Origin: a virus
Direction: 5' to 3' (one strand)
Virus record (IMG/VR): IMGVR_UViG_3300009593_000039
Span: 1-40,963 of that record
Length of the DNA: 40,963 bases
The translations under genes and the position numbers were made by a program. Shown piece by piece: positions 10,137 through 31,845 of the stretch (its first letter is position 1; each line of letters begins with the position of its first letter). The notes below the pieces were generated by a model, which saw only the letters and a list, made by a program, of their open reading frames with translations, did no database searches and was not told the DNA's origin.

Positions 10137-13100
10137 ATGCCAATTAAGAATTTCCGGCGATTGTCAACGTTGAACGTTCAATCTGATCCTGTAGACCATG
10201 GCAATAATTTAAATGATGATGCACAAGGTGCTTCCTCTGACAAGAATGTTTCGATTGTATATAAGGATCAAGAAACGCGTGGCAAAGACCCGTTGTCCGA
10301 CAATAACCAGTTGTCATTCTCTACTATCAAAAGGAATAAGACACGTAGAAAGCAAACAACATCTTATTCTATAGCAAAGAGTATTCCATCCTCATCATTC
10401 TCTAGAACTACTTCCGGACTTATATCACCATCATTGTCCATTAGAGACTTTAGCGATTCAACACTTTATAATCCATATTATAATAAGCAAAAAAAAGACA
10501 TAAAAGCAAAGTCATCAAAAAGTGAAGTAAAAATTGGCTCTATGTGGGGGATGAATCGCTACATGTTGGAGAGCTCAATATCAAACTTGCGACCTGAAAT
10601 TATTGCTTCTTTTGATTGGATGCCGGCAAGAACCACATCAGGCCGAAAAGGCTGGATAGAGTCTTTAATAGAATTCCGGTGGGCCATGAGAATGCTTCAA
10701 GTTGAAAACGTTGAAGAAACCATCAAGAGGCTTAAGGATGTAGACTTAGGTGGTGCATATTCACGACTAGAGTCAAAATATGAATATTATGTTGAGAAAG
10801 AACAATTATGGCTGGAGTGGCGTGAGAAAATTCTTCAAACTTTAAACTCTGCTAGATTAGCACTAGACATAAAAGATAATGAAGTTCGCCTCAGAGGCAG
10901 TGTATCAAAATATTATGGCGAAAAATTCACACAAAAAACCTCGGGTTCAAAGAGTACATCACTAAAGGATCTTTTTACTAACGAGTTAAGTTTTTCTGAG
11001 GATGGGTACGAAAGATTTAGTAACAGCAAGGTTTATGGACAAATTATATATGATTTGTATTATGCTTGCCGGTACCATTCGCCATTACTGATTACTGCGA
11101 AAGGTCATAGAGATAAAGATCTAAATTCAACGTCAATAAACACTAGGATTATTCCTAGATCTAAAAATTATAAATTTAGGTTATGGCAATTAGGGAACGC
11201 AAAAAACAGGCGCAAAGAGGTAAAGTTCGATGCGACACAATATAAGGATTATAGCAAGTTCCTGACCGATCTCCCGTCAGATGAATCTGACAAAATTAAG
11301 GTGCTGGTTACCAGTCTATCAAATGAACTATTAGTAAGTGCCGGCGTTGGTCATTTAGCAGATAAATCTTTAGGTAAGAGATTCAATGTCGACTTATTTA
11401 ACCCATTATGGTATCCATTAGGCAGGGTCCGGAAGAACATCTTAACAGATGGCTGGCCCCGGGGCAGTTTATCTAGCCTTGTATTACTAGAAGATTCTTC
11501 AAAAAGATTAATTCTACCATTTGAGACTAGGGATTTTTCTGACACAGATGGAAAGACCGCGGTCGCTGGTTCAAAGGCCCTCGTTGATGGTATCATGCGC
11601 TTTGGGATGTTAAGTGATGGTATGGATTATGAACCATATTATAAGTTTGGTAAAGAGTTAGATGAGACAACTCAGGATGTTGCCACTTACCTAGATGAGT
11701 TAATGAACCTGTCTGATGAAAGTGAAATACTTCATTCAAAAAGTATATACATAGACATTATCAACACACTTCTACCCTGTATACATGGGATATGTGCAGA
11801 CAACTCTAAGAATGAGCAACAACTAACCATCGCCTCATTAATGAATCTTGCATCTGAGAACCCCAGGATACGCCATATGATCTTAAGGTATATACTGGAA
11901 ATTAGAGACGCTCGTGATCAGTTAGTTGCAGATACAGGGAATGACGACTTCTTAATTCCTGATGCTGACAACCCTCCTGCCAGGATACCAAACCCAAGAC
12001 TCCAGCTATCTCGTATTGGGAAATTTAAGGAACAACAACCTCTAACTTCTGCTACAATAAGCAAAAGGTACGGATTACAACCTGATCTTGCATCAAATCT
12101 TATCAGCAAAACGCTAACTGCACGCGCAAAATACCAGCGTGCCAAGCTAGCGGCAGCAAGAGAAGAAGAGGTTCGGCGAAAGAATTACTACAGATTATCC
12201 AGAAACTGGCAGAGAACTAGCTTGTGGCTATCAATGCTTTCCCGCAACTCTATCGACAGCTCTCGCCGACCTCCTCAGGAGACCAATACAAGATCTATTG
12301 TAAAGGTAAGTGATAGTGCAGTTGTTTCGACACTCCGAAAGTCCGCAACCGGGATTAGTTCATACTATTCCCCATTTTCTCACATTCTTAGATTAGCTAG
12401 AAGGCTTCAGGTTCAGTCAGCAAACCTTGCAGATAGGGACAATACTGGTGGCCGATACATATCAGCAAAAGGGCTATCTAGATATAACGGCTGGGATGAG
12501 AATGCCTTAATTGCTGTCATATTTGAGATTTACTGTTCTTTATACTCTAGATTTATTGATGCAGAAATGATATCTCATGGAGATGATCTTTACATTAAAT
12601 ATAATCCTGAAACGAATGCTAGAGTTAGGTCCTCTATTCTAGACACACTGTCAATATCAAGAAATTCAAACGAAACATCAAAGGCAAAACAGTTAGCTTC
12701 CAAGCGAGATAGCTTAGAATCAAATGACGATATAAAGTTAACAAAGGATATGCTGGAAGGAAAGCTATCTGTCTTAGATGCGTTACAATCAGCATCAAAC
12801 CAGTCATCTGAATTAGCAGTATTTTCTGATCTATATTCTTTCGTTGAATCTTTTGAAAAAGAGCTTGAGTTTAAAGTATTAATGATTAGCCACCTCCAAG
12901 CGATCGGTAATAATTTAGGAAGAACAGCAGATAAGATCAAGGTATTTTTTAATACTAGGGATGAAGACCTGACCCCTGCCGGCACTATGAAATATAAGGC
13001 AGTAGGCCGCCACGTAGAATCATCAAGGATCCGACGCTACATGGCATGGAAGACAAAGACTAGCTTCGGCAGAGATATTTTGAGGACTATGACAGAGCAC

Positions 13101-15044
13101 CAGGTTGCACTACAACGTGTTGCCGCACAGAAGCTGTCCAGGAAACCAGGCGATGATTCATACCTACCATCAGAAATGATTATTGAGGCTGAAGAAATAG
13201 CGGCCCTGAAATCGTTTGTGTCAACACCGCAAATGAGAGGGGTACGTGGAGGTAATATCCGCGTCATGACCGTAGGTGTACCATCGGAGACGATTGATAT
13301 TTTGCAAAACCCACCTTATACACTGGGTAGGAGAAATTCAGAACTCACCGGTTCAAGAGATACCTTTGAAGTCCATGTGCATAAACGCGATCTAGAGTAT
13401 GAAGACATTATATTTAAGCCAAAGAAGTTTATTTATGACCGATCAATATTTTTAATGCCAGATGCGTTTAAGTCAGTAAACCCGTCAGTCCGAAGAGGTC
13501 GCCGGCGAAGGACTAAGAGTTGGAACTTTGATCAAGTTGTTAAGAATTGTAAGTTTACTGAGGCATTATATTCAGGCCTTAACGAAAAGACGGCAGTCCA
13601 ACTATATAAGTCTAGAAAGTATAAAGGTATACCTGAGTCTAGGCGTACTGAGTTAATTTCAAATCATGTCTCTAATAGGTTATTGCATCTATACTATCGG
13701 TTGCTTAACGGTATGACGATGGACGAGAACACATTCCTTAAAGATGGAGACTGGGGCCAACTTTTAATTGATTCAGATGCTGGTAAACTATTACAATTAT
13801 CTCAAATGGCCGGGGAAACAAAAAACTGGATTTACACAGGGACAGTACCGGTTGGAAACCTACTGATTAACACAAAGATCCAGTCGCAGAATCGAACTCG
13901 CATTGCTACATTTAAGGATGCAGAGATCTTTGCACGCCCGACACTAGCACAGCTCTCAAGGCTAGCTAGAGACTTGAGGGTTGCCAGGTATGGATACATA
14001 CCTGCATATAAAAGATATAAGAAGACGTATACAACTGGTGAGGTATATCAAGTACTAGGAAAACGTGCTGACAGATCCCGGGCTGTAAAGTACAACAGGG
14101 CTATAGAGAAAAAGCACGTTATTAAAAAGACAAGGACTTTTGCTAATCCAAAGACTAATCTAATAACGAAGAGTATGAGATCATTATCTAGCGAGTATTG
14201 GACAAAGCTCAATACTGTACCTAATGTAAAGCATCCTATTTGGGCAAAATGGTCTGCATTTAAAAGTGAGGCCGGTTCTGCCTTAGGGGCATTAAATAGA
14301 AAAAAAGCAATCCTAAAGAAAACCGAAGATAATCTTCGCCAAGTACGAGCTGAGCTAAAAAGAAAAGTATATAAACCTAAGGCTAAGAGAAACCGGAGAG
14401 ATCGTTATAAAAAAGAGATCGCTGCACTAAAGAAAGAAGTAAGTGAATTGTCTGCTAACTACAAAAAAGCAGAAAAGAATAAAAATAACGAGTTCCGAGA
14501 AGTAAAGCTTAAAATTAACAAAAACATTAGAGGAAAGGTTGCCGCCACCAAGAAAGAGTGGAATAAGCAAGTAAGAAAACGAAATAAGCAAATAAAGAAA
14601 GACAATCAGGAGATCAGGAAAAAAAGGTCGAAATTAAAGAAGTACCAACGTAAAGCATTTAAGCATATATCTCGAAGGTTCTACCGAAAGAAGCCTAGAT
14701 TATCATCAACCCACCTTCAGCATTTTAGGATGGTCTGCTCTTCTTCTATACTCGGGCCCTGCGCTATGATTAACAAGGTGCTAGCACCCCGTACATTTGA
14801 TAGAGTACTTATGATTCCCGTCGACCCTGATGATTTTGAGATTAATATGAGAGCAACTAAGAACTTGCTTAGTAAAAAAACAATAGAAGAACGCGCAGAG
14901 TTTAACGCTATGACAGATAGAACTGTTAATGAGGCAGGTGATGTCGTCGTTAAGCTTAAACCGCGCCGGCGTGGTGAGAACTATAGTTCATTTAATGACT
15001 TCTTCGTGACTATCTCTACAGTTACTATAGATGAGGATTCATAA
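10137..15044 (+). CDS. Giant basic protein with C-terminal Lys-rich coiled coil
   Basis: 1635 residues, no family recognised. The N-terminal 120 residues are low-complexity, Ser/Lys/Arg-rich and probably disordered. The bulk is mixed helical with many Arg/Lys. Residues about 1385-1515 form a long Lys/Glu heptad-like region (ILKKTEDNLRQVRAELKRKV onwards), a predicted coiled coil. A C-terminal domain follows from CSSSILGPCAMINKVLAP. Start ATG 10137 is 1 nt after the previous stop, with GGTGGAG upstream. Its stop overlaps the next ATG by one base (TAATG), so translation is coupled. The T4 baseplate wedge protein gp7 (1032 residues) shows that giant structural proteins sit in such clusters, but I see no homology signal to it. 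Confidence 0.65.
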   Translation: MPIKNFRRLSTLNVQSDPVDHGNNLNDDAQGASSDKNVSIVYKDQETRGKDPLSDNNQLSFSTIKRNKTRRKQTTSYSIAKSIPSSSFSRTTSGLISPSLSIRDFSDSTLYNPYYNKQKKDIKAKSSKSEVKIGSMWGMNRYMLESSISNLRPEIIASFDWMPARTTSGRKGWIESLIEFRWAMRMLQVENVEETIKRLKDVDLGGAYSRLESKYEYYVEKEQLWLEWREKILQTLNSARLALDIKDNEVRLRGSVSKYYGEKFTQKTSGSKSTSLKDLFTNELSFSEDGYERFSNSKVYGQIIYDLYYACRYHSPLLITAKGHRDKDLNSTSINTRIIPRSKNYKFRLWQLGNAKNRRKEVKFDATQYKDYSKFLTDLPSDESDKIKVLVTSLSNELLVSAGVGHLADKSLGKRFNVDLFNPLWYPLGRVRKNILTDGWPRGSLSSLVLLEDSSKRLILPFETRDFSDTDGKTAVAGSKALVDGIMRFGMLSDGMDYEPYYKFGKELDETTQDVATYLDELMNLSDESEILHSKSIYIDIINTLLPCIHGICADNSKNEQQLTIASLMNLASENPRIRHMILRYILEIRDARDQLVADTGNDDFLIPDADNPPARIPNPRLQLSRIGKFKEQQPLTSATISKRYGLQPDLASNLISKTLTARAKYQRAKLAAAREEEVRRKNYYRLSRNWQRTSLWLSMLSRNSIDSSRRPPQETNTRSIVKVSDSAVVSTLRKSATGISSYYSPFSHILRLARRLQVQSANLADRDNTGGRYISAKGLSRYNGWDENALIAVIFEIYCSLYSRFIDAEMISHGDDLYIKYNPETNARVRSSILDTLSISRNSNETSKAKQLASKRDSLESNDDIKLTKDMLEGKLSVLDALQSASNQSSELAVFSDLYSFVESFEKELEFKVLMISHLQAIGNNLGRTADKIKVFFNTRDEDLTPAGTMKYKAVGRHVESSRIRRYMAWKTKTSFGRDILRTMTEHQVALQRVAAQKLSRKPGDDSYLPSEMIIEAEEIAALKSFVSTPQMRGVRGGNIRVMTVGVPSETIDILQNPPYTLGRRNSELTGSRDTFEVHVHKRDLEYEDIIFKPKKFIYDRSIFLMPDAFKSVNPSVRRGRRRRTKSWNFDQVVKNCKFTEALYSGLNEKTAVQLYKSRKYKGIPESRRTELISNHVSNRLLHLYYRLLNGMTMDENTFLKDGDWGQLLIDSDAGKLLQLSQMAGETKNWIYTGTVPVGNLLINTKIQSQNRTRIATFKDAEIFARPTLAQLSRLARDLRVARYGYIPAYKRYKKTYTTGEVYQVLGKRADRSRAVKYNRAIEKKHVIKKTRTFANPKTNLITKSMRSLSSEYWTKLNTVPNVKHPIWAKWSAFKSEAGSALGALNRKKAILKKTEDNLRQVRAELKRKVYKPKAKRNRRDRYKKEIAALKKEVSELSANYKKAEKNKNNEFREVKLKINKNIRGKVAATKKEWNKQVRKRNKQIKKDNQEIRKKRSKLKKYQRKAFKHISRRFYRKKPRLSSTHLQHFRMVCSSSILGPCAMINKVLAPRTFDRVLMIPVDPDDFEINMRATKNLLSKKTIEERAEFNAMTDRTVNEAGDVVVKLKPRRRGENYSSFNDFFVTISTVTIDEDS

Positions 15045-19317: not shown

Positions 19318-22300
19318 ATGGCGATTTTTCAATTAGATAAACATTGGTTTGAAAACTTAACAATCCAGACGCAGCCGAAACGACATTTCTCATCGGCCTC
19401 ACTAGCTAGTCCACAAGCTACCGGTATCTCAGGGTCAGTCTACGTATTCTCAGAGCGTTCAAAGTTTGAAAAAGAAGCTCAGTCTTTGCAGGCGTTCTCT
19501 GACGGTGGTGAGGGCAGTATATACGGTGACGATACTTTAGAGTCATTCCGAGAGGCAATGATATTATCGTCCTCAATTTCTGAACCAGAACAAGTTAGCC
19601 AAGTAACACAGCTTACATTTTCAACAGAAGATGCACTTACAACATTATCTGGTGGTAATGGTACAGAAGGCTCCTTTGACTATAGGGACCTTCTTGGCCA
19701 TTCTTCATATGAATATATAGATAAGGCATACTTTGACCTGTATGAGCCTTCTGGGGTCCCCAGGCGGTTTTATTTTTATAATAGTAACTGGGCTGACTCT
19801 AAGAAGAAACCGCCAGTTCCGTTTCGCGGTTCGAGACATATGATTGACCTAAGCCAAGTACAAGGTTTGGGTGATCCTACATTGCCTCCTGAGTCATATG
19901 ATGTTACGTCAGCAATGACGCTTGTTGTTAGTGCAACCAACACAACGATAAACTCAGTCCAAGCGTTTAGCTCTTCATATTTATATGACGCTGCTACTTC
20001 TAAGGCCTTTGTTGAGATAACAAACTCAACTTATGGTGATTGCCTTGAGCCGGTTACCGGTACTATAGTGCATCCCATTACCGGGAAGCAAATACTTGAT
20101 CTAGATCTCGATGCTGATGGCATTGGTGATCAGGATTTGCCTACTTTTCCTTATAATATTTTTAATGTAGAAGTAATAACATCTGGCTCATTAACATCTA
20201 TCACTGGTATGCTTGAAAAATACATGTCATTGATTAATGATTGTGATGTTTCCTCTAGAAAACAAACGGAGGTTGCGATCACTAGGTTCGAGCCTTCATT
20301 TAAGATGACCAGTGATACTCTTCGTAAGAATGTAGTAAAGGATTCGCTTTTTCCATATTATAGAACAAAATATCCGGATGTCCATTGGGCATACACAAAC
20401 TATAATACAATTAACTTTTTTACATCATCACTAGTTCCAGAATCTTCTGCCTTGATATATCCTTCATTCACAGATGAGACTACGGCACCCAGCACAATAC
20501 CATATAGCCCATCTGGTTCTTTTACGTTTGAGTTCTATATTAATCCTAGATATTCAATAGATGAAGAGGATTCTTACGCAACTGGATCATTTACTGTTTA
20601 TGATTGGGAAAAATTATTAATTGATCACCATGGTGGCGGCCGCGGCGCACATGACAGCGATTGGGACACAGATTACCTGTATGAGTTTGATATTGACAGT
20701 GATGGCAATATAGAATGGGTTACCGCAGAGTCCGCCGGCTACACCGGATATTACCTGATAGCTGATAACACAGATGCCCTAGCTGCTGATGCTGATCCTG
20801 ACGGGGATGGTGTTGTTGATGATGCAGTGACTTATGCATCTTGGGATGAAGCGTCCTGGTTTGCTCAACGTCAAGCAGACGGTACAGTCCTTGTCCGCCA
20901 TGAAAACCTAATAACTGACAAAGGCGATGAGTCCCCTGATTATGACTTTAGATCTGGAGACCCAATAAAGAAGTATGTTAGTATCACGCTAAATGATGGC
21001 GTAACATCGGGCGCACAGACTTTCAATTTTGCAGCTCCAGGTTCTATAAAAAATGCCAGTGACTGGACAATAGGTAAAAATGAGCTAGGTGACTTTGATA
21101 ACTTCGAGACAGCTAAGAATATTGCCAAAACGATAGACGGAAATCAATACTTTACGTCTTGGGCTGAAAAGATAGAGGTGATTGATGAAACAGGACAACA
21201 GAAGGTAGACGAAGCATTATCTTTATTATGGACTGATGACAACGGCCTTAACGAATATTCCCTTTCACAGGCTTTATCCAAGGATGGTGCATCCGGTATT
21301 AATGACTACCAAGCAACATCTTCAGGGTTACTACTGTGGAATGATGGAGCCTTGGTCTTTACTGCTCGCTCGAAAGGCTATGGTGATATCGTTGCATGGG
21401 AAACACCTATAACTATTGATACAGCAACAACACTAGGATATACTGGGTGGTATGATCCCTCAACGTCAATGGATGTTGAAGGGCCCTTTGAACCAGATGG
21501 AGCCCAGAGATGGGTCGATCCCACAGTTGATATCAGTGTATATTTTCGTGCTGACACCGCTATAGCTCCTGCCGGCCCTTTCTCTGGGTACTATGATCCT
21601 AGTGATCCAGCCTTTCCGAACGTGCTAGCAGTTGACTATGATCCTTCTGCTGGGCATAGGACGTGGACAGAGCAGCAATGGGCAAATTATAGGGGGTTTC
21701 GAAAATTCCCTATTGCATATGAAGCAGTCGAGTGGTCTGAACCTGCTTGGGCATTAAGGAATGAGTACAATGCAGTATACCACCAAACAGAAGGTGGTGT
21801 ATTATCTGCCGGGTTGCCTGATGAGGTAACTTGGATGGTGGCTAGCGGGTATAATGTAGAGTACACTAGCTATGCCGATGAAATAGAGTGGGCAGCTGGC
21901 CAGGGATATGATTCTGTCATAACATACAATCCACCAGAAATATATGGAAAAGTCTGGGTCCGGACCAATATCCCTGGGTGGGCAGGAAATGCAGCAACTA
22001 GTACAATCACAACATTTCGCCAAACTGCTTTTGTCTGGTATTCATTTGAAGAAGTTACAGAATGGAACACTGGTACCGAACTAAATTCTGCCCACGCCTT
22101 AGGGTATACTGGGTTTCGATTACTAGCTGACTCAACGGACTCTCCAATAGCATCTGCAGATCCAGATAGCGATGGTGTCGCAGATGACCCTGTTGTTCAT
22201 GAGGCTTGGACTGAGGCGGCCTGGGCAGCAGCAAGGGGTTATGTTGCTACCGGTGACAATACATGGGGCTGGGTAGCTAACTATGAAACAACAGCAGTGT

Positions 22301-24747
22301 CAGAAGATGCCAGGGAAGCTTTTAGGTTAACGCCTCTAGATGAGCTACCATGGTCACTTGGTCCTGATGTATTCAATGCACCGATAACTGTTGACGGGGG
22401 CCTAGACCACGTAATTGTTGATCGCGATAAGTCCCATCAATTCAAGGCCGGGACTATTCTACATATGTCCTCAAGCTATGCAATTAGTTTAGTTACGGGT
22501 AGCCATATAGATTCTGCAGGTCATCCTGATGCATATAGGGTAATGTTGCAACTAAGTTCATCTGCAGATATACCTCCATCAATGATCCCATTACTAAATA
22601 ATGGCGACTATGGCGATTCATGGGTATATGAAGGGGGTACCCCTCTAGAGATTAACTCAGATAAGATTTACCTCTCCTCAGATAATTCCTTGAATAGGAA
22701 CGAGTGGCACCACATTGCCATCCGGTATGGTACAGATCTTATCGACGCCGGAAAAGCTCAAATACTAGTCGACGGCAAGATAGACTCTGAGTTTAACCTA
22801 CCGACTGATCCACTAGGGGTTCAAGAGCTATCAATACCGCAAGAGTTTGGTGACATTACCCCAAAGAAGGTGGACGACTTTACAGCAATTGATCCTGCTG
22901 AAGTTTGTTCCGGACATGAGGATATTGATATTGAGGCTGATCCTTCTGCACTATTTGTCGGTAACTTCTTTGAAGGAAAAAATGCCAGTGTGTATTCACA
23001 AACAAAGATATATGTCGATGCTGATGGTGATCCTACAATGGAAGGTGATCATGTCGCAGAGAAATATGCATGGTATATTCAAGAGGTTGATGACGATTCT
23101 GAACTACTTTGGAAAAACTCTCGAGGTATCCAGGTTCTAGCTAGCGAGGTTGAGCCGGCAACAACTGATCAAGAACTAAGAGATGCTTATTTTAATGCAA
23201 TAATGAATTATGAGCTATCTAGCTTGGAACATGTGCCAGTTTTATCATCAACGTTAGCATACAATCTCGCTGAGCTGACCGGCGATTTCGGACTATCTAG
23301 GGTGTATGATCAAGCATTGTCTATAGACTCATCTGCAACACAGTATATTCAAGGATTTTTTAGTTATGAAAGATCTCAAACAGACGGTGTCACATGGGGC
23401 CGGCTCGATGATGTTGACGCTGAATCTGGGTGGACAGCCGAAGATCCGGATCCTTTAGAACCAAATGCATATACGTTGTCACACCCTTTAAACGCTGAGG
23501 TTCATGAACTTAAGGTATGGAATGAATATCGGACAATAAGCAAAATCTCTGAATCAATGGCCGATGGCCACGATGAGATCGAGGAGACGTTAATGTTCTA
23601 CTTGCCTCCTTTCTTTACAAAGGAGACACGCCACCGGGACGTAATGATAACCCCATTCCAGACAATGCATTCAACAACTGATGATCCTTTTAATGTTGCT
23701 ATGTCATTCGGTGTCGGGGGACATTTATTAAATCTGGAGAACTTTACTAGGGAGATGGTAGTTGGCGAATTTCCTATTCTTCTAAATCTTTCTGGTTCAA
23801 CTATAGATGAGACTACCACGGAGGCCCTTGAGGCAAACGAGATACTCAATAGGGATCCTCAAATAAGAAAGAGGAACCTAACTATTTTACCATGTGACAA
23901 TGGAAACTTTGTTCCTGGTTTTACGCTCTTAGCATCTGGTGCATATGATTCTAAACCGTATGAATATGATGATCTTCCAACATCAAAATTTGTAAATGAT
24001 TATGGTACGCTTGATTATAGTAAGGTATCACTTAGGAACATGGTGCCTGAGTCAATGATGCAACCCGGCCTAATATCAATTTCCTCTGATGGTACGGATG
24101 ATACCACCGCCGGCTCTATATTTGCTCAGGTTGCAGGCTCTACGCCAGAAAACCCAGGTGTTGCACCAGGATCTGTTTTAGCAATCCTCCAACGTACTCG
24201 CGACACATCATCAAATGAAGTGGTATTCTTTGATTCATCTAATTTATTTTATGGTCAAAAAATAAAGCCTGGTTCATTTAAGTTAGTTGATCAAGACATC
24301 ATGGGATCTGGAAATAAGGTCAAGGTTACCCTACGTGATAATGGGTTTGGAGTACTCTACCGAGCTGACTCAGTAGGTAAACACCCACGTTGGGCTGCAG
24401 TTGGTAATATATTGTATGAAGAAGGGATTGCTGTCGTAACCAGTCCTTGCATACCGTACTTCGGTAAAGAGCAGTTCTCTATAGATATGGAAGGTGTACA
24501 TAATATTCATGTGATGGAAGTATTGGTGCCTTGTAACGCCGGCTTAGTTAATTCAAGCTCAAACCCTAATTTCGAATCACTTAAGGCCGGTATGGCAGCT
24601 AGCGATGAAGACACCGACTTCGTCTATATAACAGGCTTGAACTTTCATGATGAAAACCTTAATATTATAGCAAGGACTAATTTAGCCCAACCTGTTGCTA
24701 AGCGGGATGCGGATTCAATAGCCTTTAGAATCAAGGTTGATTTTTAG
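19318..24747 (+). CDS. Giant LamG-type structural protein with inserted repeat region
   Basis: 1809 residues. A LamG/concanavalin-like domain appears to begin near residue 400 (SFTFEFYINPRYSID) but only resumes near 1040 (QFKAGTILHMSSSYAISLVT, then EWHHIAIRYG, ILVDGKIDSEF and ELKVWNEYRTISK to about 1420). The intervening 600 residues hold diverged repeats: GYTGYYLIADNTD (474), GYTGWYDPS (707), GYTGFRLLADSTD (929). Two of these are followed by DPDGDGVVDD or DPDSDGVADD, a DxDxDG calcium-loop pattern. Trp-rich motifs like AWTEAAWAAARGY recur. The last 120 residues are the module shared with the 524-residue neighbour (VGNILYEEGIAV, NSSSNPNF, FRIKVDF). Probably a host-binding virion appendage. Its TAG overlaps the next GTG start. 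Confidence 0.75.
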   Translation: MAIFQLDKHWFENLTIQTQPKRHFSSASLASPQATGISGSVYVFSERSKFEKEAQSLQAFSDGGEGSIYGDDTLESFREAMILSSSISEPEQVSQVTQLTFSTEDALTTLSGGNGTEGSFDYRDLLGHSSYEYIDKAYFDLYEPSGVPRRFYFYNSNWADSKKKPPVPFRGSRHMIDLSQVQGLGDPTLPPESYDVTSAMTLVVSATNTTINSVQAFSSSYLYDAATSKAFVEITNSTYGDCLEPVTGTIVHPITGKQILDLDLDADGIGDQDLPTFPYNIFNVEVITSGSLTSITGMLEKYMSLINDCDVSSRKQTEVAITRFEPSFKMTSDTLRKNVVKDSLFPYYRTKYPDVHWAYTNYNTINFFTSSLVPESSALIYPSFTDETTAPSTIPYSPSGSFTFEFYINPRYSIDEEDSYATGSFTVYDWEKLLIDHHGGGRGAHDSDWDTDYLYEFDIDSDGNIEWVTAESAGYTGYYLIADNTDALAADADPDGDGVVDDAVTYASWDEASWFAQRQADGTVLVRHENLITDKGDESPDYDFRSGDPIKKYVSITLNDGVTSGAQTFNFAAPGSIKNASDWTIGKNELGDFDNFETAKNIAKTIDGNQYFTSWAEKIEVIDETGQQKVDEALSLLWTDDNGLNEYSLSQALSKDGASGINDYQATSSGLLLWNDGALVFTARSKGYGDIVAWETPITIDTATTLGYTGWYDPSTSMDVEGPFEPDGAQRWVDPTVDISVYFRADTAIAPAGPFSGYYDPSDPAFPNVLAVDYDPSAGHRTWTEQQWANYRGFRKFPIAYEAVEWSEPAWALRNEYNAVYHQTEGGVLSAGLPDEVTWMVASGYNVEYTSYADEIEWAAGQGYDSVITYNPPEIYGKVWVRTNIPGWAGNAATSTITTFRQTAFVWYSFEEVTEWNTGTELNSAHALGYTGFRLLADSTDSPIASADPDSDGVADDPVVHEAWTEAAWAAARGYVATGDNTWGWVANYETTAVSEDAREAFRLTPLDELPWSLGPDVFNAPITVDGGLDHVIVDRDKSHQFKAGTILHMSSSYAISLVTGSHIDSAGHPDAYRVMLQLSSSADIPPSMIPLLNNGDYGDSWVYEGGTPLEINSDKIYLSSDNSLNRNEWHHIAIRYGTDLIDAGKAQILVDGKIDSEFNLPTDPLGVQELSIPQEFGDITPKKVDDFTAIDPAEVCSGHEDIDIEADPSALFVGNFFEGKNASVYSQTKIYVDADGDPTMEGDHVAEKYAWYIQEVDDDSELLWKNSRGIQVLASEVEPATTDQELRDAYFNAIMNYELSSLEHVPVLSSTLAYNLAELTGDFGLSRVYDQALSIDSSATQYIQGFFSYERSQTDGVTWGRLDDVDAESGWTAEDPDPLEPNAYTLSHPLNAEVHELKVWNEYRTISKISESMADGHDEIEETLMFYLPPFFTKETRHRDVMITPFQTMHSTTDDPFNVAMSFGVGGHLLNLENFTREMVVGEFPILLNLSGSTIDETTTEALEANEILNRDPQIRKRNLTILPCDNGNFVPGFTLLASGAYDSKPYEYDDLPTSKFVNDYGTLDYSKVSLRNMVPESMMQPGLISISSDGTDDTTAGSIFAQVAGSTPENPGVAPGSVLAILQRTRDTSSNEVVFFDSSNLFYGQKIKPGSFKLVDQDIMGSGNKVKVTLRDNGFGVLYRADSVGKHPRWAAVGNILYEEGIAVVTSPCIPYFGKEQFSIDMEGVHNIHVMEVLVPCNAGLVNSSSNPNFESLKAGMAASDEDTDFVYITGLNFHDENLNIIARTNLAQPVAKRDADSIAFRIKVDF

Positions 24748-25292
24748 TGAGTCATATATTAGGATTAGATATCTCAACTAGTTGCACTGGATGGTGCATA
24801 ACAAGCCTGTCAGGTGACTTTGTTGACATGGGATATATAGCATTAAGCCCAAAGCTTACGACCTTCCAGAAGGCAAATGTAGTCTCTGATGCCATGGCCA
24901 ATATTCATATAAAGTATGATGTTACAAAAGTAGCCATTGAAGAAAATCTTCAAGCTTTCCGCCCTGGATTTTCATCTGCAAAGACGCTGTTATCATTGGC
25001 TAGGTTTAACGGCGTAGTTTCGTACCTGTCTCAACAGCAGTTTCTTATTGAGCCTGAGTTTATAAATGTTAATGTTGCCCGTAAGGCTGTAGGCCTTAAA
25101 ATTATCTCGAAGAGAAAAGGTGGCCTTCCGACTAAGGAACAAGTATTAAACTGGGTCGACACTCAAGTTGATTATACTTGGCCCATGAAAACATTGAAAT
25201 CAGGGAAGAGAAAAGGCCAATCTATTTTTGAGCCTGGTTGCTTCGATGCTGCAGATGCATATGTTATTGCTTCTGCTAGTAGCATTATTTGA
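24747..25292 (+). CDS. RuvC-like Holliday-junction resolvase / RNase H-fold nuclease
   Basis: 181 residues, close to RuvC's usual length of about 170. RuvC-type acidic residues are in place: D8 in ILGLDISTSCTGW on the first strand, E65/E66 in KVAIEENLQ, and D167/D170 in CFDAADAYVIA. RuvC cuts four-way DNA junctions; T4 uses the unrelated endonuclease VII (gp49) for this before packaging, so this enzyme may fill that role. GTG start at 24747 shares one base with the preceding TAG, so it is coupled to the giant structural gene although its product is enzymatic. No good Shine-Dalgarno is seen. It could instead be another RuvC-like nuclease of the same fold. Confidence 0.85.
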   Translation: MSHILGLDISTSCTGWCITSLSGDFVDMGYIALSPKLTTFQKANVVSDAMANIHIKYDVTKVAIEENLQAFRPGFSSAKTLLSLARFNGVVSYLSQQQFLIEPEFINVNVARKAVGLKIISKRKGGLPTKEQVLNWVDTQVDYTWPMKTLKSGKRKGQSIFEPGCFDAADAYVIASASSII

Positions 25293-25366: not shown

Positions 25367-26341
25367 ATGTCTACTGTAAGCGATAAAGTTAGGTTTCTTA
25401 ATAAGGTTTTTGGCACCGGTGTGTTAGGCACCGACGGGCTAAATATAGCCGTTTGTTGCCCGAACCCAAAGTGTGGTACTTACGGAGTACCCTCAAAGAA
25501 GAAGCTAGTAATCAAGATCGATTCCGATCAATTCCAGTGTTGGGTTTGTGACGTCCGCGGTCGGTCCTTACATAGTATATTACGTAGGCATTTTCCTGCT
25601 CATTATGAAGAATATAATCGTAGGTTTTCTAAAAAGCTAGACGTGTCTAGTCATTTAGAGATTGAGCCTGAGGTCGTTATCCCCCCTGCTGGGTTTAAGC
25701 TATTAGCAACAAGCATGCTTTCAAAAGATCCAGACGTAAAGGATACTATCCGTTATGCAAGATCTAGAAACTTATCAAATCGTGATTTTTGGTACTTTAA
25801 GCTTGGTACATGTACTAGGGGCAAGTTTAGGAGAAGGCTTATTATGCCATCCTTTAATGAGGACGGTGACCTAAACTATTATGTCGCAAGAACAATTGAT
25901 AACTCTGCCGGCGGCATGAAATATCTAAATGCTAAAGTACCTAAGAAAAGCGTTATTTTTAATGAAATTAATATAGATTGGTCTCAAGAGCTCACTTTGG
26001 TTGAGGGCCCTATGGATTTAACAAAGTGTGATAGTAATGCTAGTTGCCTACTGGGCTCACATTTTTCTGAAGAGTATGCATTATGTCAAAAGATAATCAA
26101 GAATAGGACTCCTGTCCTGTTAGCGATGGATTCTGACATGGGTGACAAGATACAAAAATACTGCAAGCTTTTATCTTCATATGGTATACCAACCAGGGTG
26201 CTTAAGTTAGGCACACACGATGATGTAGGCGAAATGTCAAAGTCTGCATTTTTACAGGCAAAACGAAATGCTAAGCCGTGGCACCAGCGCGACAGGCTTT
26301 ATCACTTAATCGGCTCAATTAAGAGCGGATCATTATTATAG
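25367..26341 (+). CDS. DNA primase (zinc ribbon + Toprim, gp61/DnaG type)
   Basis: 324 residues, near the size of T4 gp61 (342). The N-terminal zinc ribbon has C30/C31 and C36 (CCPNPKC) paired with C58 and C61 (CWVC). The Toprim domain shows the EG motif at E213 (LVEGPMDLTKC) and the DxD at D255/D257 (AMDSDMGD), which bind catalytic metal. The enzyme would make RNA primers for lagging-strand synthesis with a DnaB-type helicase; no helicase gene is in this window. No Shine-Dalgarno precedes ATG 25367 and the candidate promoter ends only 8 nt upstream, so a leaderless transcript is possible. The nuclease-ATPase fusion follows after 11 nt. Confidence 0.9.
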   Translation: MSTVSDKVRFLNKVFGTGVLGTDGLNIAVCCPNPKCGTYGVPSKKKLVIKIDSDQFQCWVCDVRGRSLHSILRRHFPAHYEEYNRRFSKKLDVSSHLEIEPEVVIPPAGFKLLATSMLSKDPDVKDTIRYARSRNLSNRDFWYFKLGTCTRGKFRRRLIMPSFNEDGDLNYYVARTIDNSAGGMKYLNAKVPKKSVIFNEINIDWSQELTLVEGPMDLTKCDSNASCLLGSHFSEEYALCQKIIKNRTPVLLAMDSDMGDKIQKYCKLLSSYGIPTRVLKLGTHDDVGEMSKSAFLQAKRNAKPWHQRDRLYHLIGSIKSGSLL

Positions 26342-26352
26342 TTGGGATTTAA

Positions 26353-29300
26353 ATGACTTTTAAATGTATACATATCTCTGATATCCACTTTCGAGGGCTG
26401 ACTCGCCACGATGAGTACCGGGAGTCTTTCTCTGCATTCTTCGAGAAGGCAAAAGATCTCAAGCCAGACGCAATATTCGTAGGTGGTGATATTGTACACT
26501 CTAAGACCCAAGGGATATCACCTGAGCTTATTGATATTCTAAATTGGTGGTTTACCAGCTTAGCAGAGGTAGCACCTACACACATCATCTTGGGCAACCA
26601 TGATGGCCTTATGATGAATAAGGATCGCCAAGATGCAATTAGTCCAATAATCTCAGCACTCGATAATCCTAATCTGTTTCTATATAAGGATTCTGGTACA
26701 TATCCAATTAATGGAATTCCAGGATATAACTGGTGTGTCTTTTCATGTTTCGACATGGACTCTTGGGAGGATGTAAAGCCGGTACCTGGTGAAATTAATA
26801 TTGCAACTTTCCATGGAGGTGTCGAAGGGTCACACACAGACATCAATTGGAAAATCGAAGGTGAGGTTAATGTCCAGTTCTTTAAGGATTATGAGTTCAC
26901 ATTTTTGGGTGATATTCATAAACTTCAATATCTAGATAATGATAAGCGGATAGCATATCCTGGTTCAACAATCCAACAGAACTATGGCGAAGATCCTGGT
27001 AAGGGGTTCTTATTTTGGGAAATTGATGATAAGGACAACTTTAGATCTACATTTTATGAGATTCCACACTCACGCCCATTTGTTACTATCGATTGGGATG
27101 AAAGCGTCCAGTCGACTTTAGATCGTGCAGAGAAACACCCTGATGGTTCAAGGTTCCGGATTAGGACTACGAAACAAATATCTCAACATGAAATTAAACA
27201 GCTCCATTCTGCGTTAAAGGAGTTTAAGCATGCAACTGAAATTGTCTATAAGAATGACTTTGAGATTGAGACTAGCTCTGTAATTAAGCTTGGAGATGGT
27301 GAACTATTTAAAGATGATTTACGAGACTACAAGACTCATACAAAGTTAATGAAAGAATTTTATTCTGACGTTGTCATTGACGAAAAGGAATGGGAAGAGC
27401 TAGATGCATTAAATAATAGATACGTATCTCAAATTTGTAATTCTGACTCTGCAAGGAATATAAAGTGGTCTGTTAAGAATCTTAGGTTTGACAACACCTT
27501 TTCATACGGAAAGGGGAACTACATCAACTTTGATGAGTTGAATGGGATTATCGGCTTATTCGGCCCTAACCGATCAGGCAAGTCTTCAATTCCTGGTACG
27601 CTGATGTATACCTTGTTTAACACGACTGATCGGGGTTCAATTAAGAATCTACACATCATTAATTCTCGAAAGGGTTATTGCCTTGGCTCTGTTGATGTAC
27701 AAATTAACGGGCAGCTATATAGGATTGAACGACAGTCAACAAAACATGAGACCCGAGCCGGCCACCTTCATGCAGTAACGCATCTAAACCTATTTAAAAT
27801 TGATGCTGAAGGGAACGTCATTCAAGACCTAAGTGGTAGCCAGCGCACTGAGACAGAGAAAATTATCCGAAAGCTTGTTGGCAACTCCGAAGACTTTTTG
27901 TTAACGTCAATGGCTAGCCAGGGTGAAATGAATAACTTCATTAAATACAAAGCTACCCAGAGAAAAGCCGTCCTCACTAACTTTTTAAACCTTAATATGT
28001 TTGATGACATGTTGTCAATGGCATCCAATGATTCCGCACATATTAAGGCACTAATTAAGAACGCTCCGGACCATGAGTGGGAACACCTGATTATTCAGGC
28101 AAACATGAAGGTTGGTCGTAAATCCATTGAGCGTGACGAGATTGATGAATCCTTATTGGAGAAAAGAGGTAAGCTGCAGGAGCTAACTGTTACATTGGCA
28201 ACGCATAAACACAAGGATCTTGTGACGGCTGAGGATGTAACAGCCCAAGGGCAACGCCTTACGAAGTACAGCGATCGGTATTCATCTCTTAAGGCACGCC
28301 ATGCCGTAGTTGGCCAAGAATTCGATGAAATTAACGGAAAGATTGAAAAGATCAGCTTAATTAAGGAGCAGTTCCCGATTGATGAGCTTAAGGAAAAGTT
28401 AGGCATCCAAGAGGATCTTGAGAAGAGTCTTAAGGATTTAGAACATCAACGAGAGCTTGAGAAACAACTTTTAGAAAGTAAGAAAAAGCTAGCAAAGAAG
28501 CTAGAACCCTGCGATTGTTTCGAACATTTGCCAAGTTGCCAATATGTTAAAAAGTCAGACAAGCATAACAAGGTAGTAGAAAAGCAGAAAGAAAAAGTAT
28601 CATTGCTACTGGATAGTGTTAGGGCAACTCGGAAAGCACTTAAAGCTGTATTGCGGGAAGGGTTAAAGGAAAAACTAGGGAAGTATGACATTATTCTATC
28701 CCAAGAAGCTAAGTTGAAGATTGAGGCATCCGAGAAGGCAGTTGAGATTCATTCTCTAAGTACTGACATTTCTTCTCTAAAGACGCTAATCAAGGAGTGC
28801 GAAAACCTACTAAGTGACATGAAGGTCAGGGTAAGTGATGGCTCAGTAGCTGAAGAGGTTAGCCTTCTTAAGAAAAGGATTAACTCACTTAAAGACGAGA
28901 TCATGGATTTAGACTCAAGAAGAATAAGCGCTTCTGAAACGATCGGGCTCTTGACAAACGAGATATCTAGGCTTGAGACAGAGCGTGATGAGTTTAAACA
29001 ACTAATGGCCCAGTGGAAGGTGTATGATCTTTACATGACAGCAGTGTCTAAGAAAGGGATCCCCTTGCAAATTATTACGGCGCAGTTACCCATTATTAAC
29101 GCCGAGATTTCAAAAATCCTGCAAGATGTTGTTGGCTTCACTGTCGAGCTTGAAGCCGACCCTGCTAGCAACGCTATGGATATTTATATAAACTATGGAG
29201 ATTCCCGACGGATAATTGAATGTGGCTCTGGTATGGAGAAGATGATGGCATCGTTAGCCATTCGTGTTGCCTTAATTAATATAAGCTCATTGCCTAAGAC

Positions 29301-29520
29301 AAATCTATTGATTATTGACGAAGGCTTTGGAGCGTTAGATGAGATGAATGTAGAGGCATGCAACCGGTTGCTTAAGTCTCTTAAGAGGTGGTTCCGAAAC
29401 ATACTGGTTATTTCCCACGTCGATGGTGTTAAGGATGTTGTTGATGTCGTACTTGACATTCGCCACAAAAACCATGACTCGCTGGTCCAATGTGCCGGCG
29501 CGGAGGCATTAAGTGGATAA
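26353..29520 (+). CDS. Fused SbcD-SbcC (gp47-gp46, Mre11-Rad50) recombination nuclease/ATPase
   Basis: 1055 residues joining two proteins that are separate in T4. Residues 1-330 are a Mre11/SbcD metallophosphoesterase: D10-x-H12 (ISDIHF), GGD46, GNH83D, then TFHGG and LGDIHK. From about 365 a Rad50/SbcC ATPase begins, with Walker A GPNRSGKS at 404-411, two coiled-coil arms around a Cys hook (C720, C722, C729), signature CGSGMEK at 957-963, Walker B LLIIDEG with D989/E990, and D-loop GALDE at 993-997. Mre11-Rad50 machines resect DNA ends for recombination-dependent replication, and in T4 gp46/gp47 also drive host DNA breakdown. All catalytic motifs are intact and no stop or frameshift separates the halves. 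The hook spacing (C-D-C, then six residues, then C) differs from the usual CxxC. Confidence 0.92.
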   Translation: MTFKCIHISDIHFRGLTRHDEYRESFSAFFEKAKDLKPDAIFVGGDIVHSKTQGISPELIDILNWWFTSLAEVAPTHIILGNHDGLMMNKDRQDAISPIISALDNPNLFLYKDSGTYPINGIPGYNWCVFSCFDMDSWEDVKPVPGEINIATFHGGVEGSHTDINWKIEGEVNVQFFKDYEFTFLGDIHKLQYLDNDKRIAYPGSTIQQNYGEDPGKGFLFWEIDDKDNFRSTFYEIPHSRPFVTIDWDESVQSTLDRAEKHPDGSRFRIRTTKQISQHEIKQLHSALKEFKHATEIVYKNDFEIETSSVIKLGDGELFKDDLRDYKTHTKLMKEFYSDVVIDEKEWEELDALNNRYVSQICNSDSARNIKWSVKNLRFDNTFSYGKGNYINFDELNGIIGLFGPNRSGKSSIPGTLMYTLFNTTDRGSIKNLHIINSRKGYCLGSVDVQINGQLYRIERQSTKHETRAGHLHAVTHLNLFKIDAEGNVIQDLSGSQRTETEKIIRKLVGNSEDFLLTSMASQGEMNNFIKYKATQRKAVLTNFLNLNMFDDMLSMASNDSAHIKALIKNAPDHEWEHLIIQANMKVGRKSIERDEIDESLLEKRGKLQELTVTLATHKHKDLVTAEDVTAQGQRLTKYSDRYSSLKARHAVVGQEFDEINGKIEKISLIKEQFPIDELKEKLGIQEDLEKSLKDLEHQRELEKQLLESKKKLAKKLEPCDCFEHLPSCQYVKKSDKHNKVVEKQKEKVSLLLDSVRATRKALKAVLREGLKEKLGKYDIILSQEAKLKIEASEKAVEIHSLSTDISSLKTLIKECENLLSDMKVRVSDGSVAEEVSLLKKRINSLKDEIMDLDSRRISASETIGLLTNEISRLETERDEFKQLMAQWKVYDLYMTAVSKKGIPLQIITAQLPIINAEISKILQDVVGFTVELEADPASNAMDIYINYGDSRRIIECGSGMEKMMASLAIRVALINISSLPKTNLLIIDEGFGALDEMNVEACNRLLKSLKRWFRNILVISHVDGVKDVVDVVLDIRHKNHDSLVQCAGAEALSG
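29502..29506 (+). promoter_or_regulatory. Ribosome-binding site deciding the GTG start at 29513
   Basis: GGAGG lies 6 nt before GTG 29513 and inside the end of the nuclease-ATPase gene. It is one of the best Shine-Dalgarno matches in the window and supports this start over the internal ATG at 29549. Confidence 0.7.
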
Positions 29521-29818
29521 TTGGGTAGAAATATCATCAAATAGAAAGATGATAAGATTGAAAAAGTATTCTCTAGTAGTTCCCACTGAAGATATTAGCG
29601 TAGTACCCCTTGAATGTCCGGTATGTAATTTATTAATGTCTTCCTTAGGGGATACATTATCATATCAAGAGTATAATTGTTGTAAGGGCTGTGAATTAAT
29701 GTGGGCATATCCTAATAAGGATCGCTGGCTAGCCGGATGGCGCCCATCTGAAAAGCAACTTAAAGAGTATAAAGATGAAAAAAACAGCATTCCTTCTTTC
29801 ATCTATAAGGTCAAATAG
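29513..29818 (+). CDS. Small zinc-ribbon protein
   Basis: 101 residues from a GTG start that overlaps the preceding gene by 8 nt. Four to five cysteines form a zinc-ribbon pattern: C35-x2-C38 (LECPVCNL), then C56, C57 and C60 (NCCKGCELMW). Conserved-looking Trp/Pro residues follow (YPNKDRWLAGWRPSEKQ). Zinc ribbons of this size often bind nucleic acid or RNA polymerase. Translational coupling to the SbcCD fusion hints at a helper in recombination or transcription, but no function can be assigned. No T4 protein of this kind is known to me at this locus. Confidence 0.75.
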   Translation: MDNWVEISSNRKMIRLKKYSLVVPTEDISVVPLECPVCNLLMSSLGDTLSYQEYNCCKGCELMWAYPNKDRWLAGWRPSEKQLKEYKDEKNSIPSFIYKVK

Positions 29819-30240: not shown

Positions 30241-31845
30241 ATGGCCGTTGTTAATAAACAGCGCCAGGTTAAAGAGATAATCCGGTGCGGAAAAGATCCA
30301 AAGTACTTTTTTAATAAGTACGTGAAGATCCAACATCCAACAAAGGGGCTAATTCCCTTTGCCACATTTCCGTTCCAGGATGATTGTATCGATGATTTTG
30401 TAAATCATCGCTTTAACGTCATCTTAAAGTCAAGGCAGCTAGGGATATCAACCCTTTCAGCTGCCTATGCTGTTTGGCTAGCAATATTCTATAAGGATAA
30501 GAATATCTTGGTCATTGCTACAAAGCTTAGTGTAGCAATGAACTTTATAAAAAAGGTTAAGGTTGCCATCAAAGGCCTACCCCCATGGATGATTCTTCCT
30601 GAGATCACTAGCAACAATAAGCAATCTGTCGAGTTTTCAAATGGTTCATCAATTAAGGCAATTCCAACGTCTGATGACGCAGGTCGTTCTGAGGCGCTAA
30701 CGTTGCTGATTGTGGATGAGGCTGCATTTGTAAGAAACTTTGATGAGCTATGGATGGGATTGTATCCTACGCTGTCAACAGGTGGTCGCGCAATTGTATT
30801 GTCAACCCCCAACGGTGTCGGCGGACAGTACTATGATTTATACATGAAGGCAACTGCTTCTGAGAATGAGTTCAACCCTATTAAACTTCCATGGGATGTC
30901 CACCCTGAGCGAGAAGATGCTTGGTTCGAGAATGAATGCAAGAACTTAACACCGAAACAGATTGCACAAGAGTTGTTGTGCGACTTTGCTGCTTCCGGTG
31001 ACACCTTCTTACAGGCAGAGCATATTGAGAACATTCGCACACAAGTCAGAAACCCAATGGAGAAATGGGGCCCTGAGATGGGCGTCTGGGTGTGGAAGTA
31101 TGCTTTAACTGAGCACAAATATGTAATATCTGCTGATGTCGCCCGCGGCGATGCTGGGGATTATTCTGCATTCCATGTCATTGATACTAACGAGTCTGAG
31201 ATTGTGGCTGAGTATAAGGGGAAGATACCCCCCGATCAATTTGCAATACTGTTGAATGAAGCCGGTATGAGATATGGTAAAGCTTTATTATGTCCAGAAA
31301 ATAACACATATGGGTATGCTGTGATTATGAAGCTAATCGAGTTAGGGTACCCGAACCTTTATTACAAAAAAGAAAAGGATCGTTACGCCGCGATGTATTC
31401 TGGTGAAAGCAATATTCATAAAGCCGGTTTTACAACTTCTGGAGTTTCACGCGCACAGATTCTAACAAAGTTAGAACAGGTACTACGTAATGGTTATATT
31501 AGATCATACTCCGATCGCCTCTATTCCGAGCTAAAGACTTTTATTTGGAAAGGCAATAAGGCACAAGCACAAAAGGGCCAGAATGATGACCTGGTAATGT
31601 CTTTAGCTATTGGTGTTTGGTTATATGACACTACACCAGGATTAAACAAGTCTTCGGTAGATATTAATCAAGCAATGCTTAATGCATTTAAAGTGAATAG
31701 AAATACTGTAAAATCTTCAAACTTGCCTAAAAGTGAAGCATTTTCGAACAATCCATTTAAACCAGTGGTCATGGGTAGTGGAGCCCCTTCATCTGATGGT
31801 GACAGTGATGATCCATATGCTGATCTTAAGTGGTTATTAGATTGA
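30241..31845 (+). CDS. terL: Terminase large subunit (gp17-like)
   Basis: 534 residues; T4 gp17 has 610. The N-terminal ATPase has a Walker A variant SRQLGIST (64-71), Walker B LLIVDEAAF with D159/E160, and coupling motif LSTPNG. The C-terminal RNase H-fold nuclease has D299 (ISADVARGD), E353 (CPENN) and D449/D450 (NDDLVMSLA), the metal-binding triad. The protein pumps DNA into the prohead and cuts the concatemer, docking on the portal encoded next. A flexible acidic tail (SDGDSDDPYADLKWLLD) ends it. ATG immediately follows the previous stop, so translation is coupled. In T4, genes 18 (sheath) and 19 (tube) follow 17; here the portal comes next. Confidence 0.96.
   Translation: MAVVNKQRQVKEIIRCGKDPKYFFNKYVKIQHPTKGLIPFATFPFQDDCIDDFVNHRFNVILKSRQLGISTLSAAYAVWLAIFYKDKNILVIATKLSVAMNFIKKVKVAIKGLPPWMILPEITSNNKQSVEFSNGSSIKAIPTSDDAGRSEALTLLIVDEAAFVRNFDELWMGLYPTLSTGGRAIVLSTPNGVGGQYYDLYMKATASENEFNPIKLPWDVHPEREDAWFENECKNLTPKQIAQELLCDFAASGDTFLQAEHIENIRTQVRNPMEKWGPEMGVWVWKYALTEHKYVISADVARGDAGDYSAFHVIDTNESEIVAEYKGKIPPDQFAILLNEAGMRYGKALLCPENNTYGYAVIMKLIELGYPNLYYKKEKDRYAAMYSGESNIHKAGFTTSGVSRAQILTKLEQVLRNGYIRSYSDRLYSELKTFIWKGNKAQAQKGQNDDLVMSLAIGVWLYDTTPGLNKSSVDINQAMLNAFKVNRNTVKSSNLPKSEAFSNNPFKPVVMGSGAPSSDGDSDDPYADLKWLLD

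Follow-up and report, generated by a model that had tools for sequence, protein, structure and literature searches.

An Mre11-Rad50 (SbcD-SbcC) gene fusion of a type published in 2011, in a marine-type tailed phage and its relatives

The fused gene and its motifs

The virus record IMGVR_UViG_3300009593_000039 of IMG/VR is a 40,963-bp fragment from a marine-type virus infecting bacteria, a tailed phage, and the window analysed here is this whole stretch (positions 1 to 40,963). An earlier note on this DNA, made from the sequence, had proposed that it encodes an Mre11-like nuclease and a Rad50-like ATPase in a single polypeptide, and this is borne out by a 1055-codon frame and by family matches to each half. 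The N half matches PF00149, the calcineurin-type phosphoesterases (E 1.9e-12), and the SbcD-like phage family phrog_100 (E 7e-31), and the C half matches the SbcC-like phage family phrog_77 (E 8.8e-61) and TIGR00618 sbcC (E 5e-24). Furthermore, a family profile search matches PDB chains of SbcC, Rad50, SbcD and Mre11. The single-chain AlphaFold2 model (mean pLDDT 85.6, pTM 0.51) has fold matches to E. coli and S. aureus SbcD (4m0v, 7dog) and to SbcC/Rad50 (7yzp, 7zr1). The locus carries the following features:

24747-25292, plus strand: RuvC-like Holliday junction resolvase in a conserved position (phrog_159, E 7.7e-11)
25367-26341, plus strand: DNA primase, the upstream conserved operon partner (phrog_47, E 8.5e-35)
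26353-29520, plus strand: Mre11-Rad50 (SbcD-SbcC) fusion gene, 1055 aa, ATG start, without internal stop
26353-27027, plus strand: Mre11/SbcD-like calcineurin-type phosphoesterase domain, about residues 1-225, boundary approximate (PF00149, phrog_100, SbcD fold match)
26380-26388, plus strand: motif I, D10-I-H12, invariant in the family bar one truncated row
26488-26490, plus strand: motif II metal ligand D46 (GGDIVH), from the alignment, invariant bar one truncated row
26593-26604, plus strand: motif III GNHD, residues 81-84, invariant
26812-26814, plus strand: motif IV H154, invariant
26908-26919, plus strand: motif V GDIH, residues 186-189, Asp replacing the first His of GHxH
27028-27255, plus strand: capping-domain region, about 226-301, boundary approximate (secondary structure of the model, fold match to SbcD nuclease and capping domains)
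27328-27438, plus strand: two helices, 326-336 and 344-362, a candidate Rad50-binding helix-loop-helix (secondary structure of the model, profile match)
27439-27462, plus strand: junction linker, residues 363-370
27463-27987, plus strand: Rad50/SbcC N-terminal ABC lobe (PHROG, model and profile matches)
27562-27585, plus strand: Walker A GPNRSGKS, residues 404-411, K410/S411 invariant
27994-28497, plus strand: ascending coiled coil, 548-715 (model)
28429-28572, plus strand: hook-tip cassette, 693-740, with C720-x-C722-x2-H725-x3-C729, the minority allele of a scattered dimorphism
28540-29046, plus strand: descending coiled coil, 730-898 (model)
29047-29493, plus strand: Rad50/SbcC C-terminal ABC lobe, 899-1047 (family match, model and profile matches)
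29227-29241, plus strand: ABC signature SGMEK, 959-963, invariant
29305-29322, plus strand: Walker B with D989/E990, invariant
30241-31845, plus strand: terminase large subunit, conserved downstream (phrog_2, E 5.7e-51)

In the nuclease half, the metal-binding positions of motifs I to V are complete: D10, H12, D46, N82, H154 and H189 are conserved and the first His of motif V is changed to Asp, giving GDIH; in the alignment, T4, SPO1-like phages and E. coli have GHxH at this place. Among 67 aligned relatives, N82, H83, H154, D187 and H189 are invariant, and D10, H12 and D46 are present in all bar one truncated row. In the ATPase half, which also contains the D-loop L995/D996 and H1022, the same holds without exception for K410, S411, S959, G960, D989, E990, D996 and H1022. 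D84 of motif III and the remaining listed motifs are invariant or nearly so. Moreover, positions 171-364 of the family profile, towards the end of the Mre11 side, match E. coli SbcD 208-400.

The C half follows the plan of Rad50/SbcC, a bipartite ABC head (Walker A, signature, Walker B) flanking long coiled coils of about 165 residues each. Its membership in Rad50/SbcC rests on this head and on the coiled coils rather than on a CXXC hook. At the Rad50 apex, a CXXC motif has been described whose conservation extends from archaea to humans and includes viruses (PMC5093744). The window protein has no CXXC and ends its coils with C-x-C-x2-H-x3-C, a tip that keeps cysteines and reads as a variant of the Rad50 plan. 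The motifs listed in the earlier note hold for the phosphoesterase, Walker A, signature and Walker B but not for a canonical Cys hook. Nor is the ATPase half unusually compact for a phage, as had been suggested, since T4 gp46 has 560 aa against about 690 here.

Genome neighbourhood and proposed role

The fusion gene lies within a block whose order, ruvC-primase-fusion-two small ORFs-terL-portal, is conserved. Of the 86 relatives whose available DNA reaches far enough upstream, 72 have the primase within 600 bp ahead of the fusion, and terL lies downstream in 88 of 93; in the window, a T4-type portal gene follows terL. A 101-aa ORF (29513-29818) overlaps the end of the fusion, carries CPVC and CCKGC, which are zinc-ribbon-like, and occupies the same position in most relatives; neither Pfam nor PHROG gave a match to it. 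The window also contains, ahead of the replication genes, three very large ORFs (81-5420, 10137-15044 and 19318-24747, encoding 1779, 1635 and 1809 aa), for which no PHROG match was obtained at E 0.001.

The window itself is a 40,963-bp fragment; a second SbcCD locus and a recombinase were searched for in 14 large phage records (123-320 kb). In all 14, the sole SbcC-like locus is the fusion. The SbcD-like match is likewise at the fusion only in 13 of them, the remaining record having none at threshold. A second, split SbcCD in the same phages is therefore rejected for these 14 large relatives. All 14 encode a RecA/UvsX-type recombinase homologue; a 48-kb fragment searched alongside carries the fusion and gave no recombinase match. 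Separately, the 735-kb phage LR756501 has, besides its fused Mre11-Rad50, a separate 566-aa SbcC-like ORF (670999-672753).

We consider it very probable (about 0.9) that the gene encodes, in a single chain, a phage Mre11-Rad50 (SbcDC) complex that would process DNA ends for recombination-dependent replication and repair. Two chains would dimerise through their Mre11 parts, their ATP-bound heads and the hook, yielding the usual M2R2 machine. This complex would bind DNA ends and resect or cleave them under ATP control. By analogy with T4 gp46/gp47, the phage recombinase would then receive the 3' single strands and use them in replication that depends on recombination and in repair. The fusion itself most likely fixes co-expression and would allow the Rad50-binding helices to dock on the coiled-coil root of the chain to which they belong; a change in stoichiometry or chemistry is improbable. 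A search of the open-access literature retrieved no biochemical study of any member of the clade, and nothing useful on fused SbcCD, Mel-JY01 or genes-in-pieces Mre11.

Alternatively, the fusion may be a nuclease that degrades host DNA or otherwise acts against the host, rather than a replication and repair enzyme. In T4, according to its record, gp46/gp47 are needed for breaking down host DNA as well. However, the conserved linkage to primase and RuvC and the co-occurrence with RecA/UvsX favour recombination and replication, which makes this alternative unlikely, although the two roles are not mutually exclusive.

A slightly less likely alternative is a catalytically altered protein acting mainly as an ATP-driven DNA tether with weak nuclease activity. 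Nuclease activity is indeed predicted from motifs of which the Asp of motif V and the His of GDIVH depart from characterised enzymes. The replacement of GHxH by GDIH and the non-canonical hook would both fit a tether, and canonical zinc-hook dimerisation cannot be taken as established since the hook lacks CXXC. However, every other metal ligand is invariant and Asp is a competent metal ligand. Furthermore, the same change occurs in Mimivirus R555 (PMC3175470) and in T5-like SbcD.

One frame, and probably one chain, conserved among relatives

In the model, the last helix on the Mre11 side ends at residue 362 and the first Rad50 strand begins at 371, leaving a linker of 8 residues (7-11 in relatives). 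In the T. maritima complex, the corresponding ends are about 28 Å apart, a distance that 9-12 residues in extended form would span by the estimate of Yoshida et al. (2011), who also argued that the order Mre11-then-Rad50 fits the geometry of this complex (PMC3175470). Compared with that estimate, the linker makes docking in cis feasible but tight, and its length of 7-11 residues suggests that the usual geometry is retained.

Internal starts occur in phage genes, and the gene could in principle give two products, an internal start yielding extra free Rad50 and a stoichiometry other than 1:1. Some relatives do have an ATG at column 353 or 377, but the relatives share no internal start at the junction that comes with a Shine-Dalgarno-like site: such sites accompany five scattered junction candidates, against 39 of 67 true starts. 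A separately translated Rad50 is thus rejected as very improbable. The short linker and the lack of a conserved internal start together indicate that the protein is probably always made as one chain. The canonical Mre11-Rad50 complex is already M2R2 (2:2), so that the fusion imposes no new stoichiometry and does not "force" a special 1:1 ratio, as had been claimed.

A single-protein scan of IMG/VR retrieved 16 loci; 14 of these cover the full length, with identities of 43-81%. A wider scan with alignment found at least 584 stretches encoding a confirmed relative, of which 80 were kept. Nearly all complete close copies among the loci retrieved are one ORF of about 1040-1110 aa (L099, described below, is the exception), and the same single ORF occurs in independent contigs from many metagenomes at 28-81% identity. 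Judged from these ORFs, the fusion is common to hundreds of related phages. The search for the same fusion in related genomes proposed in the earlier note thus finds it in close and distant relatives, and this conserved ORF excludes, as far as sequence permits, both a stop or frameshift at the join and a situation in which close relatives have only split genes. A false join of two adjacent genes by misassembly or frameshift, conceivable since the two lie close together in T4, SPO1-like and T5-like phages, has a practically negligible probability and is rejected, as independent conserved copies carry the fusion, including that of the annotated Microcystis phage Mel-JY01.

One sequence recovered as a relative, L022, is split as in T5-like phages, with proteins of 324 and 617 aa. 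Fused genes were also seen in three contigs binned as bacteria or archaea: L102 (Halobacteriovorax MAG), L103 (Methylococcaceae MAG) and L105 (Nitrosopelagicus MAG). Since L102 and L103 keep the phage terL/portal context, they are likely to be prophages or contigs of phages, and they give a hint of the hosts.

In a tree built from 26 concatenated sequences, a branch (100/99) separates all split pairs from all rows that are fused or "in pieces"; the long branches of L003, L107, Grass and E. coli make the outer placements unsure. As the fused and "in pieces" rows are grouped together, a single origin of the fusion appears sufficient for this sample and repeated independent fusion is not needed. 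The rows "in pieces", L002 and L099, sit among fused relatives and have the Mre11 domain cut just after GDIHK of motif V. In L002 (2935-7160; LR756508, a 484-kb phage), a 305-aa ORF rich in paired cysteines, possibly a homing endonuclease, lies between the pieces. In L099 (4998-8233), the two pieces are overlapping ORFs. A scan for the hook motif added four loci (L137, L183, L188 and L211) whose downstream piece begins at the same point. In these four and L099, the ORFs are adjacent or overlapping and show a tail that looks conserved, IDExDLxxYPGA, as well as a new start, MSKKxRIK.

The coiled-coil tip and known systems

Tips of three types were found in 67 sequences: VPCGxxFPTC or close (CX6C) in 58, PCDCFEHxPxC or close in seven, including the window, and CXXC in two. 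In IMG/VR motif scans, the CX6C and window tips occur only in members of the fused family. When the tree is computed with the tip columns removed, the window-type tip requires 6 changes for its 7 rows, barely below what randomly assigned labels give (shuffled mean 6.6). Over residues 693-740, the window protein is 79% identical to L012, with only 22-31% in the flanking coils, and 42% identical to its close relative L009 (77% overall). Tip identity therefore tracks the allele and not overall kinship (window, L009, L012, L015 and L042). Exchange of the tip by recombination would be the simplest account, with parallel change as the alternative. This exchange is not recent, since the tips shared by the window and L012 have 67% DNA identity.

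It is tempting, though doubtful, to view the tip as a dimerisation module that comes in at least two incompatible alleles and has passed between phage lineages. With its two cysteines, the common CX6C tip would require a partner for a full zinc site, whereas the window allele, with four potential ligands, could form such a site in one chain. If true, the tip allele would decide which phages' Mre11-Rad50 molecules can bridge DNA together in co-infection. In any case, the scattered alleles are a separate, testable puzzle on the role of the hook.

The novelty implied by the earlier note does not stand: Mre11/Rad50 fusions were first described in 2011 by Yoshida, Claverie and Ogata, who reported Mimivirus R555 together with twelve further proteins, the carriers including plasmids, bacteria, eukaryotes and one Bacillus phage, 0305phi8-36 (PMC3175470). 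In viral-fraction metagenomes they saw many R555-like sequences, and the scaffolds of these aquatic homologues also bore phage-like genes, primases among them; many of the sequences, they argued, belong to phages (PMC3175470). The window protein is a further fusion of this type and fits their prediction of aquatic phage carriers. The R555-like fusions that were inferred by these authors from short metagenomic reads can now be assigned to tailed phages that form a large, coherent group and share a fixed gene context. Moreover, a natural single-chain Mre11-Rad50 of about 1050 residues would be convenient for structural work on the ATP gating of the nuclease.

The window protein shares with R555 the domain order in one chain and two motif changes, GDxxH (His for the third Asp of GDxxD) and Asp for the His of motif V (PMC3175470), both verified in an alignment with the counterparts from T4, S-PM2, SPO1-like and T5-like phages and from E. 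coli. However, R555 is longer (1351 aa against 1055), has longer coiled coils and belongs to a virus of amoebae, whereas the window protein is from a tailed phage. The hook of the window protein is non-CXXC. The best structural matches in BFVD are mimivirus-type proteins (e.g. Tupanvirus A0A6N1NVE8, 22% identity), followed by Tenacibaculum jumbo-phage proteins, all nearly full length. The repair proteins of Tenacibaculum phages pT24 and PTm1 are longer than the window protein (1310 and 1318 aa) and have 15-16% identity with it; from this near full-length match of models, they are apparently fused too. Single-gene fusions are also carried by Mel-JY01 (WWT39521, 1066 aa, 28-29% identity, with a primase nearby) and LR756501 (1202 aa, 23% identity), both with a CXXC tip (CKHC and CVTC, respectively), unlike the window.

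By contrast, T4 gp47/gp46 and the proteins of cyanophage S-PM2, SPO1-like Grass and T5-like PSTCR5 have the same two activities and presumably the same role but are encoded by separate genes, with CXXC hooks in Grass and PSTCR5. Bacillus phage Grass, whose tblastn alignment reads through a stop and so resembles a fusion, has two genes according to its annotation. Finally, E. coli SbcCD and the archaeal and eukaryotic Mre11-Rad50 are alike in fold and motifs but consist of two polypeptides with longer coiled coils and a CXXC zinc hook, and E. coli SbcD has GHxH in motif V where the window protein has GDIH.
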